Source: an uncultured Acidimicrobiales bacterium (GTDB lineage: Bacteria; Actinomycetota; Acidimicrobiia; Acidimicrobiales; SZUA-35). Taken from it: DNA of 40,231 nucleotides. Both the position numbers and the translations under genes were made by a program. This document shows positions 64-29,536 of this stretch, one piece after another. The notes under the pieces were generated by a model. It searched no databases. It was not told where the DNA came from and saw only the letters and a list, made by a program, of their open reading frames with translations. Every line of letters begins with the position of its first letter. The stretch's first letter is position 1. Location: the NCBI GenBank assembly GCA_937958015.1, contig CALGOA010000144.1:1-40231 (forward strand), given 5' to 3'.

Positions 64-1221
64 TTAGGAGGCGGCCATTGTGAGGGTGCGCAGGGCGGCC
101 GTGTCAGTGACGGTCGAGTCCGAGCGAACGATGCACCGGTAGGTGACGATGTCGTTTCCGAACTTGTAGGCGTCGGAGCTTTCGAGTCGGGGGTTACCGA
201 CGTAGCGGATCACGCTTCCCGCTTCGAAATCGCCGAACACGACCGAGGAGTTACCAGCGGCCATGAGAGCGATATCGGGACCGGTCACAACGGGGCGGCC
301 AAGGAGAGTGTCGGGGACACCCGGGATTAGGCCGGGGTTCCACAGGTAGGCGCCGTCGTTGTCTTTGAGCTTGCGAATCTCGGCAAGGGTTGCGTCGTTC
401 ATCAGCCACGTACCGTTTGCGCGGTACTGGGCGATAACCGAGTGCTGGAGGTCGATGAGTTCGTTACCGGTAACCGCGTCGGTCGCCGAGGCCGTCTTGC
501 CCGATGGGGCGGCCGCCACGGCGGTGGCGTAATCGGCGCCGATGCTGCGGTAGCACGCTTCGAGCATTTGGCCCATGAGAACATCGCGAAGGACGGCGAC
601 GCCGTCGGTTCCGGCCTCGTTGGTCACGTCCATGAGAACTGAGTGCTTGAAACTCGCGAGGGTGACCGAGTCAAAAACCGGGTCACTTTCGGGGATGGGG
701 TCGCCCTCGGCGGTCTTGGTGGCCGTCGACTGACCCACGATCCGAGGGATTCGTAAATCGGCGCCGGTCTCGGTGACGAGAACCTTGGCACCGACAAGGG
801 CGGGGGTGGTCTTTGCCAACGCCGAGACAACGACCTCGGGCCAAATCAGCTCGGGCACCGTTTCGGCGCCCTCGGACACCGTGGCGGTGTTCACGGCGCG
901 AAGTTCAATGGAGTTTGTGTCTCCACCAACGAGGGCTCGCAGTTCAGAGTCGAGACCGACAGCGGCGCCAAACGCGGGGGTTGGCTGCACCGACGACAGG
1001 CCCGAGGCCCGATAGGCCGCGTCCGAGCGCGTCTCGTGGTCGGCGAGGTTAATCAGGTTGGTCTCACGCTCGGTGAGACCCCGAATCTCGTCGATGAGTC
1101 GGGCCTCGGTTTGACGGGCTTCGCCCGAGAGGGGGCCGCTACTGAGGTCATAAAGGTTACGGAGTTCGGTTTGTGCGGTAAGGCGCGCCGAATGGACGGC
1201 CTTGAGAGAAATGAGGCTCAT
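64..1221 (-). CDS. HK97-family phage major capsid protein
   Basis: 385 aa ORF. N-terminal helical/delta-like region (RLTAQTELRNLYD...ETNLINLADHETR), then capsid-like core (VPELIWPEVVVSALAKTTPALVGAKVLVTETGADLRIPRIVGQSTATKTAEGDPIPESDPVFDSVTLASFKHSVLMDVTNEA...). RBS-like AAAGGA upstream of the ATG. Confidence 0.85.
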   Translation of the reverse strand: MSLISLKAVHSARLTAQTELRNLYDLSSGPLSGEARQTEARLIDEIRGLTERETNLINLADHETRSDAAYRASGLSSVQPTPAFGAAVGLDSELRALVGGDTNSIELRAVNTATVSEGAETVPELIWPEVVVSALAKTTPALVGAKVLVTETGADLRIPRIVGQSTATKTAEGDPIPESDPVFDSVTLASFKHSVLMDVTNEAGTDGVAVLRDVLMGQMLEACYRSIGADYATAVAAAPSGKTASATDAVTGNELIDLQHSVIAQYRANGTWLMNDATLAEIRKLKDNDGAYLWNPGLIPGVPDTLLGRPVVTGPDIALMAAGNSSVVFGDFEAGSVIRYVGNPRLESSDAYKFGNDIVTYRCIVRSDSTVTDTAALRTLTMAAS

Positions 1222-13026: not shown

Positions 13027-14832
13027 TTAGGGGGAAACCCGCAGGATCCGATCCTGCCCACCGCCGTTGCTCGTCGTCACATAGAGCGCCCCATCGGGAC
13101 CTTCGGCCACGCCTCGTAGTCGTCCGTACTCACCGTTGATGACAACCTGCCGACCCCGGTAAGAGCCGTCATCGGAGAAGAACATCACCCGAAGGCTTCG
13201 ATTCTTCAGAGCGGTCACGGCCAGGCCGGTGCGCCAGGAACCCCAGGCGTCGTCGCTGAGGAAGGCTGCGTCCGCGAGCGCCAGAGTGGGTGCTCCGGTC
13301 GACCACGCGGCACCAATCGCCGAGGGGAACTCGGCGAGGTCGGTCATTGGCACCGACTCGTTGTACCCGGGCACCGGATTCCAGCCGTAGTTGCCGCCGG
13401 ACCGGATGCGGTTCACTTCGTCATCCCGGTTGGGTCCGTGTTCGACGGTCCACACCTCGCCCGAGTCCGGGTGGATCGCCACCCCCTGGATGTTTCGGTG
13501 ACCAAAAGAAAGGACTCGCCGGGTGTTCCCGTCGCTCGAGCTGGCGAATGGGTTCGTCGCCAGCCCCTCGCCGGTGAGTCGGTCCACCCGAAGGGTCTTG
13601 CCCCCAAGGCTGGTGAGGTTCTGGGGGAGTGAGCCGTTGGCGGAGTCTCCGGTTCCCACGATCAGGGCCCCGTCGGAGTCCACCTCCAACTGACAACCTC
13701 CATGGCGGCCTGAACTTATGGGCAGGCCGCCGACGAGGGGATCATTCACTCGGGTGGCGGTGGTGCCCGAAAGGGTCCAGGCCACGACCTGAATCTCTCG
13801 TGGGCTGGCGTGGCCCTGACAGGAATAGAAGCGGCCATTCGCACCGAAGTCGGGATCCAGCGCAAGCCCCATCAGCCCTGTCTCACCGTTGGCAAACAGG
13901 TCACTGAGGTTGGCGGAGACAGCGGTCCGGGTGCCGTTGGACTCGACCAACCAGAAGCCGCCGCCCCGTTCGGTGACCAGCAGTTGACCATTCGGCAGAG
14001 GGGCAACGTCCCACGGAATGGTGAAGCCGTTCGCCACCACACTCACCGACGGCGCCGGCGGAGGAGCGAAACGAGCCCGGTACTCCGGGCTGGCCATGAT
14101 CGGGAAGATCAGCTGCACCAGCGAGGCGCCATTGCGAACCTGGTCACTCCAGTAGGCGGCCCCCTCGGGCTCGGGGACCCGCTGTAGAAGTCCTAGATAC
14201 ACGGTGGTCACAAGCACATCAGGGTTTCGTCGGGCGCGGTGTTCGGCCGACTCACTTACGGCCACCACGAAACCTGGTACATCGAGGCGTCCGGCTGCGA
14301 TCTCACCCGTCCAGAAGGCGAGACCCTCGGCATCGGGGGTTCGGCCGAGCACCCGGCCGTAGACGGCTTCGACGATCTCTTCCTCGGTCTCGGCATCGGA
14401 CAGGGCGGCGAACTCGTTGCTGGCGAGAAAGGCGCTCGCCAGAGCGGTCAGACTGGCGCCCCGCTGTCGTTGTCCAACCCAGAAGCGGAGGCCGCCCAGG
14501 TCGGGATCCCGATCGAACACGCTGTAGTACAGACGTGCGACAGGGGCGACCGTGCCGCCGAACTCCGGCGAACCAACGAAGGCGTTGTACATCTGTGCCG
14601 GTCCCAGGCCGGCGTTCAGTTGGCCGGTCCAGAATGCGAGCCCGCCGGCGTCGGGCGCGCGGCCGAAGACATCGGCGTAGACCTGCTCGACCAACAACTC
14701 GTTGGTCGGGAACAGCCCCGCTACCGGTCCAGTCTGAGCTGCCGCAGTGCCGGTGGGGCTGGCGAGCACGGTGCCCACCAGCAGCACCAGCACGACGAGG
14801 ACACGATTTCGCTTCTGCGCCATCCCGCTCAA
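13027..14832 (-). CDS. Secreted DUF4214-repeat + PQQ-dependent (soluble glucose dehydrogenase-like) sugar dehydrogenase fusion
   Basis: Signal peptide; four approx. 50-aa repeats (VYADVFGRAPDAGGLAFWTGQL..., LYYSVFDRDPDLGGLRFWVGQR..., VYGRVLGRTPDAEGLAFWTGEI..., VYLGLLQRVPEPEGAAYWSDQV...). C-terminal sGDH features IPWDVAPLPNGQLLVTERGG, GLALDPDFGANGRFYSC, GHRNIQGVAIHPDSGEVWTVEHGPNRDDEVNRIRSGGNYGWNP. Confidence 0.88.
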   Translation of the reverse strand: MSGMAQKRNRVLVVLVLLVGTVLASPTGTAAAQTGPVAGLFPTNELLVEQVYADVFGRAPDAGGLAFWTGQLNAGLGPAQMYNAFVGSPEFGGTVAPVARLYYSVFDRDPDLGGLRFWVGQRQRGASLTALASAFLASNEFAALSDAETEEEIVEAVYGRVLGRTPDAEGLAFWTGEIAAGRLDVPGFVVAVSESAEHRARRNPDVLVTTVYLGLLQRVPEPEGAAYWSDQVRNGASLVQLIFPIMASPEYRARFAPPPAPSVSVVANGFTIPWDVAPLPNGQLLVTERGGGFWLVESNGTRTAVSANLSDLFANGETGLMGLALDPDFGANGRFYSCQGHASPREIQVVAWTLSGTTATRVNDPLVGGLPISSGRHGGCQLEVDSDGALIVGTGDSANGSLPQNLTSLGGKTLRVDRLTGEGLATNPFASSSDGNTRRVLSFGHRNIQGVAIHPDSGEVWTVEHGPNRDDEVNRIRSGGNYGWNPVPGYNESVPMTDLAEFPSAIGAAWSTGAPTLALADAAFLSDDAWGSWRTGLAVTALKNRSLRVMFFSDDGSYRGRQVVINGEYGRLRGVAEGPDGALYVTTSNGGGQDRILRVSP

Positions 14833-27689: not shown

Positions 27690-28364
27690 TCAGGCACCGC
27701 TGGCGACGACGTTCCACAGGTTCAAAACCTGGTCTTTTTCGAGACTTCCGACCGACCGTGCAATCAGATTGTTCTCACCGTCGAGGTAAAGCGTGTAGGG
27801 GATGCCGCTGATCCCGGACGCCAGACCGGCCTCGTTCTCCGCGCTGTCCCGCATCACCGTGCCGGGGAAATTCTCAAGCCATTCCGACGGCGGATAGTTG
27901 GGCCGCGTCTCGTCGACGGCGATGGTCACCGCGTACAGGTCGATCTCGGACGGCTGCACTCCATCGGCGACCAACTCGTTGATCAGATTGACCTCATCCT
28001 GACAGTGCGGACACCAATGGGCGAGGAAGTACACCACCTTGGCCCGGCCGTCGGGTCCGATCGACACCTCGGAACCGTTGAAGTTGGTTCCCGTCAGCGT
28101 GGGTGCCACCGAACCGATCGCTGGATCGTCGGCTTCGTCGCTGAAGACTCCGCCGCCTTCGAGTTGCGGGAGCGCCGCGCCGGAGACCGTTACGGGCGCG
28201 GTCTCGGCACCGTCAGAGGTCTGAACCGCGGTTGTGGTAGTGGTCTCGCCCGGTTCGGTCGTCGTGGTCTCCTCGGCCGACTCGGATGCGGACGAGGACG
28301 ATCCGCAGGCGGCCGTCAGCGTTAGTGCGGCAAGGATGAGAAAGAGGGTTCGAAGTCGGAACAC
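27690..28364 (-). CDS. TlpA/ResA-like thioredoxin-fold lipoprotein
   Basis: Lipobox LTAAC; Thr-rich linker; VVYFLAHWCPHCQDEVNLINEL active site CPHC; GIPYTLYLDGEN cis-Pro loop. Confidence 0.9.
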   Translation of the reverse strand: MFRLRTLFLILAALTLTAACGSSSSASESAEETTTTEPGETTTTTAVQTSDGAETAPVTVSGAALPQLEGGGVFSDEADDPAIGSVAPTLTGTNFNGSEVSIGPDGRAKVVYFLAHWCPHCQDEVNLINELVADGVQPSEIDLYAVTIAVDETRPNYPPSEWLENFPGTVMRDSAENEAGLASGISGIPYTLYLDGENNLIARSVGSLEKDQVLNLWNVVASGA

Positions 28365-28465
28365 CGCTTCAGCCTAGGCAGAACCGCGGTCTGCGGAGGG
28401 TCGTGGATCCTCCCTACACCACGCCTAAGTCTTCGGCCCCGCACTTCAGGCACTACATTCTCGGC

Positions 28466-28927
28466 ATGCTTACTGAAGACACGACTGCGCCCGACTTCAC
28501 GGCGCTCGATCAGGACCGCAAGGCCGTTTCGCTCAGCGACCTGCGGGGCTCCTGGGTCTTGATGTGGTGGTATCCGAAAGCCAGCACGCCCGGTTGAACG
28601 GCTCAAGGATTGGGCTTGCGTGACAAGTCCGAAGAGTTCGCCGCCGCTTCCTGCGAGGTTGTGGGGATCTCGTTCGACACCCCCGAGGACAACTCGGAAT
28701 TTCGCACGAAGCAGGAGTTCCCGTTCACTCTGCTGAGCGATGAGGACAAGTCGATCGGGGCGACCTATCACGCAGTTCGTGATCCCGACGACAACTACGC
28801 CAACTTCCCAAAACGCATCAGTTACCTGATCGATCCAGAAGGCACGATTCAAAAGGCGTACGAAGTGAGCGACCCGGCCGGTCACGCTGCGGCGGTTCTT
28901 GCCGACCTGGCCGCTTTCCAGCGCTAA
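28466..28927 (+). CDS. BCP/AhpC-type peroxiredoxin, candidate selenoprotein (in-frame TGA at 28595-28597 read as Sec)
   Basis: MLTEDTTAPDFTALDQDRKAVSLSDLRGSWVLMWWYPKASTPG-[TGA]-TAQGLGLRDKSEEFAAASCEVVGISFDTPEDNSEFRTKQEFPFTLLSDEDKSIGATYHAVRD...FPKRISYLIDPEGTIQKAYEV. Both halves share one frame; the TGA replaces the peroxidatic Cys of TPGCT; SECIS-like hairpin downstream. Confidence 0.9.
28610..28632 (+). promoter_or_regulatory. Candidate bacterial SECIS hairpin
   Basis: UUGGGCUUG-CGUGA-CAAGUCCGA: 9-bp stem (two G-U pairs), 5-nt apical loop with GU. Loop G is 22 nt after the UGA. Confidence 0.82.
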
Positions 28928-28933
28928 CGCCCT

Positions 28934-29536
28934 GTGAAGAGCCGTCTCGCAAAATGGGTTCTCCGACGGTGGGGGTTCGAACTTGTCGGCTCACGCCCCG
29001 ACGCCGAACACTCGGTGATGATCGCCTCTCCACACACCTCCAATTGGGACTTCCCCCTGGCGCTTCTGATCGGTTGGGCGCTTGAGTTCAACATGCGTTG
29101 GGTAGGGAAGAAGGAGATGTTTCCTCCCGTCATCGGATGGATCTGGAAACGCATGGGCGGTATTCCGGTCGATAGAGCCTCGGCCTCGACCATGGTCGAG
29201 TCGCTCACGAATATGTTCGAACCCGGCGAACGAATAACGATCGTCATCCCGGTGGCCGGCACTCGTGGGCACACCGACCATTGGAAGTCTGGCTTCTACC
29301 GGGTGGCCCGAGGCGCCAACGTGCCGGTCGTTCCCGCGTTTGTCGACTTCGGCAACAAGCGTTGTGGGGCCGGGGAGGCGATCATGTTGACCGGCGACGT
29401 CACCGCCGACATGGACCGCTTTCGCGAGTTTTACGCCGGTATCGAAGGCAAGTACCCCGAGAACGACGGTCCGATCCTTCTGCGGGAAGAGTTGAAGTCC
29501 CAGCTGGAGGACGGGCCGGAGTCAGCGGCGGACTGA
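28934..29536 (+). CDS. PlsC-like 1-acylglycerol-3-phosphate acyltransferase family protein
   Basis: IASPHTSNWDFPLAL (HX4D), KKEMFPPVIGWIWKRMGGIPVDR, IPVAGTRGHTDHWKSGFYRVARGANVPVVPAFVD. Confidence 0.85.
   Translation: MKSRLAKWVLRRWGFELVGSRPDAEHSVMIASPHTSNWDFPLALLIGWALEFNMRWVGKKEMFPPVIGWIWKRMGGIPVDRASASTMVESLTNMFEPGERITIVIPVAGTRGHTDHWKSGFYRVARGANVPVVPAFVDFGNKRCGAGEAIMLTGDVTADMDRFREFYAGIEGKYPENDGPILLREELKSQLEDGPESAAD

Follow-up and report, generated by a model that had tools for sequence, protein, structure and literature searches.

The general chemistry of peroxiredoxins is well established. In PrxQ enzymes, the resolving Cys lies five residues past the peroxidatic residue, and AhpE is reduced through mycothiol/mycoredoxin. 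A 2005 study described, from 43 Sargasso Sea sequences, a COG1225 peroxiredoxin that contains selenocysteine (Sec) in a TxxU motif (PMC1088965); this protein appeared again in a later selenoproteome survey (PMC1794560) and is also listed in a 2026 review (PMC13188914). PrxU of Eubacterium acidaminophilum, likewise a Sec-containing peroxiredoxin, has been studied biochemically (Sohling 2001, as cited in PMC13188914).

Here, we analyzed a 40,231-nucleotide stretch of DNA from an uncultured Acidimicrobiales bacterium (contig CALGOA010000144.1; the window). From sequence and predicted structure, we are highly confident that it carries a Sec-containing BCP/PrxQ-type peroxiredoxin gene whose UGA codon 44 would be read as Sec. 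A preliminary description of this DNA had noted that the family is known for Cys-to-Sec variants, which the published COG1225 proteins bear out (PMC1088965). The window protein shares with these the COG (Bcp), Sec in PxxxTxxU, and a bacterial SECIS directly after the UGA, but belongs to an Acidimicrobiia-centred branch, for which the absence of the PrxQ resolving Cys is now known. The kind of enzyme has thus been known since 2005, and the locus adds the Acidimicrobiia branch. Literature searches combining Acidimicrobiia with selenocysteine, or with selenoprotein and peroxiredoxin, returned no description of this branch, a weak negative given that most subscription journals were outside their scope.

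The window protein resembles BCP/PrxQ structures (PDB 5enu, 3drn, and Xanthomonas PrxQ 5iiz) in fold (TMq 0.87-0.91), length, and the TPG[C/U]T motif, whereas it has Sec for Cys and lacks the resolving Cys at +5. Its best NCBIfam match, the BCP-type thiol peroxidase model NF006960, scores 113 bits against a 140-bit cut-off, and no NCBIfam equivalog searched matches above cut-off; best matches by both sequence and fold nevertheless place the protein in BCP/PrxQ. Mycobacterium tuberculosis AhpE (Rv2238c; PDB 1xxu, 4x0x, and 5id2) is also close (profile match E=9.8e-21; TMq 0.88), and both are actinobacterial peroxiredoxins with one active residue; however, AhpE has Cys rather than Sec, and BCP structures match the window protein better. 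NF040737, which we take from the model name to be PrxU, shares the Sec-containing peroxiredoxin character but is longer (233 positions), and at 53.6 bits against a cut-off of 270 the window protein falls outside PrxU.

A peroxiredoxin reading frame interrupted by one TGA

Two open reading frame fragments on the plus strand (28403-28597 and 28610-28927) share one frame, and their sole interruption is a TGA at 28595-28597. The features of the locus are as follows.

28466..28927, plus strand: gene predicted to encode a 153-residue Sec-containing peroxiredoxin of the BCP/PrxQ type, starting with ATG and ending with TAA at 28925-28927 (read-through translation, PF00578, 40-member family, AlphaFold).
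28595..28597, plus strand: in-frame TGA, codon 44, at the peroxidatic position, predicted Sec (sequence; TGA shared by all 40 relatives in the alignment, TGC used by the two nearest Cys homologues).
28610..28632, plus strand: SECIS-like hairpin with a 9-bp stem (28610-28618 with 28624-28632) and a 5-nt loop, CGUGA (28619-28623) (minimum free energy [MFE] fold, synonymous-codon test, covariation, held-out model).
27690..28364, minus strand: neighboring gene for a divergent thioredoxin/TlpA-like lipoprotein with a WCPHC motif (weak PF00578, PF13098, and PF00085 matches, all below the gathering score).
28934..29536, plus strand: acyltransferase gene starting 6 nt past the peroxiredoxin stop (PF01553, E=2.8e-12).

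The PF00578 (AhpC-TSA) match spans the TGA with an E value of 3.9e-33 (residues 28-151 of a 174-residue reading), and the motif at this point, PKASTPG-U-T, places the TGA on the peroxidatic Cys codon of PxxxTxxC. The preliminary description had joined the two fragments into one frame split by a single TGA, yielding on read-through a complete peroxiredoxin of about 153 residues with the interrupted codon on the catalytic Cys, and the present analysis confirms each of these points. Its first fragment is correct as to frame, but the gene does not include the stretch 28403-28465. The GTG at 28403 was ruled out as a start, the family beginning at ATG 28466, and what precedes this ATG is a spurious extension; we regard ATG 28466 as the real start because M1-L2 is nearly invariant in the alignment of 40 relatives.

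The acyltransferase gene is possibly cotranscribed with the peroxiredoxin gene. A search among the peroxiredoxin relatives revealed no conserved operon partner, nor is the adjoining acyltransferase gene conserved there. The thioredoxin/TlpA-like lipoprotein gene also adjoins the peroxiredoxin in one relative (L035), and rhodanese, TlpA-like, and DUF3039 neighbors recur in a few close relatives only. Elsewhere in the window, a phage capsid family protein is encoded at the contig edge beside housekeeping genes (64-1221, minus strand; PF05065, E=1.8e-43), possibly a prophage remnant or a gene-transfer-agent-like gene, and a protein encoded at 13027-14832 (minus strand) has several DUF4214 repeats fused to a glucose/sorbosone dehydrogenase domain.

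Conservation of the TGA and the Sec-decoding machinery

One alternative is a pseudogene, in which a peroxiredoxin that once had Cys acquired the TGA by nonsense mutation; TGC and TGA are one base apart, and the ORF would be split by standard gene callers. In the alignment, however, every one of the 40 family members (38-65% identical to the window protein) has its TGA at this same codon, with downstream sequence intact. Four named Acidimicrobiia metagenome-assembled genomes (L022-L025; 51-64% identity) all carry TGA here. Within the class, 38/396 genomes searched encode a relative whose frame is interrupted by exactly one TGA, and this TGA is seen again across dozens of independent assemblies; beyond Acidimicrobiia, the phylum sample adds seven genomes with the TGA form. 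The sampled genomes are mostly metagenome assemblies. Furthermore, the TGA-containing gene co-occurs with the Sec machinery, and an RNA hairpin is kept beyond protein needs, as detailed below. We therefore consider a pseudogene to be extremely improbable.

The source assembly (4.17 Mb, 88.7% complete) contains the whole decoding apparatus on contigs other than that of the window. A tRNA-Sec on contig C210 scores 66.8 bits, above the Rfam cut-off, and has the anticodon tca/UCA according to ARAGORN. SelA (402.9 bits) and the adjoining SelB (272.6 bits) are encoded on C98, and SelD (374.7 bits, with one TGA) on C18, all over cut-off. This SelD (L019, C18:6083-7000) would also contain Sec, its frame having a TGA (C18:6113) in the active-site motif GAG-U-SCK, and the genome therefore has at least two predicted selenoproteins. 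Two genomes of the same family (G223 and G315) also combine a Sec-type peroxiredoxin with tRNA-Sec and SelA, which makes a binning error unlikely.

Across the class, tRNA-Sec was found in 37/38 genomes with the TGA-containing peroxiredoxin versus 248/396 overall (hypergeometric P=1.6e-7), and SelA in 36/38 versus 263/396 (P=1.8e-5); these P values ignore the shared ancestry of the relatives and overstate significance. The three exceptions, G252, G365, and G188, each have the other component, tRNA-Sec or SelA. G365 has tRNA-Sec and the TGA-containing gene, but a profile search of its genome gave no SelA match, and a SelB-like match below cut-off (C23:16080-17246) contains two TAG and one TAA; its Sec system is possibly decaying or poorly assembled. 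The 248 genomes with tRNA-Sec over the Rfam cut-off include small genomes of about 1 Mb in genus g89, and the Sec trait appears widespread in Acidimicrobiia.

Homologues L026-L033, L072, and L073 have Cys at the aligned position, and the in-frame TGA thus aligns with a redox-active Cys. The closest of them, L072 and L073, use TGC, and their genomes (G190 and G299) gave no SelA match and no SelB over cut-off; the tRNA-Sec match in G190 is marginal (47.5 versus 47 bits), within the near-threshold range of all four genomes searched. A same-family relative, L060 (G265 C39:13936-14391), is a fast-evolving copy with Ser (TCA) in an altered active site, EPG-S-RDEG, and with no hairpin. G265 keeps SelA and SelB and has no tRNA-Sec over cut-off. 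Judging from these sequences, Sec is not retained everywhere in the family, because L060 has Ser despite the SelA and SelB of its genome.

Reading of the TGA as Trp, Cys, or Gly, through a changed genetic code or a suppressor tRNA, was also considered. The frame by itself indicates UGA read-through alone, to which such decoding would be equal. Against it, UGA in the family is confined to one redox-active, Cys-equivalent codon, a dedicated tRNA-Sec(UCA) with SelA, SelB, and SelD is present, and downstream of the UGA lies a SECIS-like hairpin, leaving this alternative very improbable. Collectively, the Sec reading of the TGA advanced in the preliminary description is strongly supported by the machinery, the conserved TGA, the SECIS-like hairpin, and the Cys forms without SelA. 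Its argument that a chance nonsense mutation was unlikely is upheld by the 40 aligned members, and the orthologues carry TGA, rather than TGC or TGT, with no downstream erosion. The Sec-decoding trait that it expected of the organism is matched by selA, selB, selD, and tRNA-Sec(UCA) in the same assembly.

A SECIS-like hairpin downstream of the UGA

The hairpin starts 12 nt 3' of the UGA. As a stem-loop immediately 3' of the UGA, with a small apical loop containing a conserved G, it corresponds to the bacterial SECIS as defined previously (PMC1088965). Its MFE z-score against shuffled sequences is only -1.56, and the case for a SECIS rests on covariation and a synonymous-codon test instead. Nearly all relatives have a 6- to 9-bp stem on the same loop, which reads CGUGA in 36/41 sequences, CGUGC in 3/41, and CGGGA in 2/41; the stem is interrupted in L040 and L062 and reduced to 0-1 bp in the Ser and Cys forms L060, L072, and L073. 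Loop lengths of 5, 6, or 7 nt make an ungapped alignment unfit for the hairpin, and registers were treated separately.

Double-sided compensatory changes were found at 6/8 stem positions among the 41 sequences, such as G-C/C-G in the closing pair, with C-G/U-A and C-G/G-C/A-U at pairs further along. Stem pairing was 87%. Swapping 3' arms within a register lowered it to 83% on average, with no value exceeding 86%, and swapping them among all sequences lowered it to 69%; the observed value is somewhat inflated by the choice of registers by best stem. Synonymous recoding attained the observed window stem in 0.2% of trials (P=0.002). For most relatives not in the GGGCCTG/CAGGCCC group, fewer than 5% of trials attained the stem; within that group, the protein sequence alone yields it in 13-20% of trials.

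A covariance model built from 13 members of one register found 26/28 held-out Sec genes, missing L080 and L081, and scored the window at 33.5 bits (E=2.3e-6), part of this signal being coding similarity. In the Cys and Ser homologues, the same model detected no active-site hairpin. The SECIS model search that the preliminary description had suggested thus yielded a covarying, SECIS-like hairpin after the UGA. A general inverted-repeat search did not pick up the short stem, probably due to its G-U pairs.

Active site and predicted catalytic cycle

In the alignment, T41 and U44 are present in 40/40 members, R117 is invariant, and P37 is present in 37/40. The AlphaFold model, in which Cys stood in for Sec, has a mean pLDDT of 97.3 and a pTM of 0.91, and its best PDB matches are Bcp/PrxQ proteins followed by the 1-Cys AhpE of M. 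tuberculosis. The thioredoxin-like peroxiredoxin fold, the PxxxTxx(C/U) motif (P37, T41, and U44), the catalytic Arg (R117), and the PF00578 match together identify the protein as a peroxiredoxin.

The PrxQ resolving Cys at +5, a point that the preliminary description did not raise, is absent in 40/40 members and also in the two Cys homologues. Position 49 varies (Q, K, G, R, L, T, and other residues) and is never Cys (40/40), which sets the protein apart from the 2-Cys form of BCP/PrxQ. No invariant second Cys was found across the 40 aligned members.

Building on the gene, conserved TGA, decoding machinery, hairpin, and fold established here by computation, we propose the following pathway. 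SelA would make Sec-tRNA(UCA) from Ser-tRNA and selenophosphate supplied by SelD, and SelB, bound to the hairpin 12 nt downstream, would deliver it at UGA codon 44. Sec in the P37-x-x-x-T41-x-x-U44 and R117 site would then attack H2O2 or organic hydroperoxides, forming a selenenic acid, which an external thiol may reduce, tentatively mycothiol/mycoredoxin (as for AhpE) or thioredoxin.

An internal resolver is conceivable, with Cys63 forming a selenylsulfide with Sec44 that thioredoxin recycles as in 2-Cys PrxQ. The window protein is among the 13/40 members that have Cys63; however, the remaining 27 have Ala, Val, Thr, or Gly at this position, the +5 Cys of PrxQ is never present, and residue 63 opens strand 63-69 in the AlphaFold model. 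This route seems unlikely to us. A 1-Sec peroxiredoxin recycled by an external thiol is most likely from the sequences, because the +5 Cys is absent in 40/40 members and no second Cys is invariant. Mycothiol as the reductant is a suggestion only, because an MshC-like ligase of the genome (423.7 as MshC versus 347.4 as CysS) lies below the MshC cut-off (424 versus 485), and mycoredoxin-type matches also score below cut-off. It is doubtful whether the branch represents a distinct 1-Sec subfamily of PrxQ in Actinomycetota, acting as a selenium-dependent peroxidase reduced by mycothiol/mycoredoxin; if true, such a subfamily would be the functional counterpart of selenium glutathione peroxidases on the peroxiredoxin fold.

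The Sec-containing peroxiredoxin branch is widespread and probably overlooked in Acidimicrobiia. In about one-tenth of sampled Acidimicrobiia, annotation would present this gene as two ORFs or as a pseudogene, an error that its recognition corrects. Protein and SECIS vary together (LRDQ, LRDS, LRDK, and FRDR), providing a clean natural experiment, whose other side is the loss of the hairpin where Cys or Ser stands for Sec. The missing resolving Cys raises the question of how the selenenic acid would be reduced, possibly by mycothiol, and the predicted enzyme would tie the antioxidant defense of Acidimicrobiia to selenium supply.
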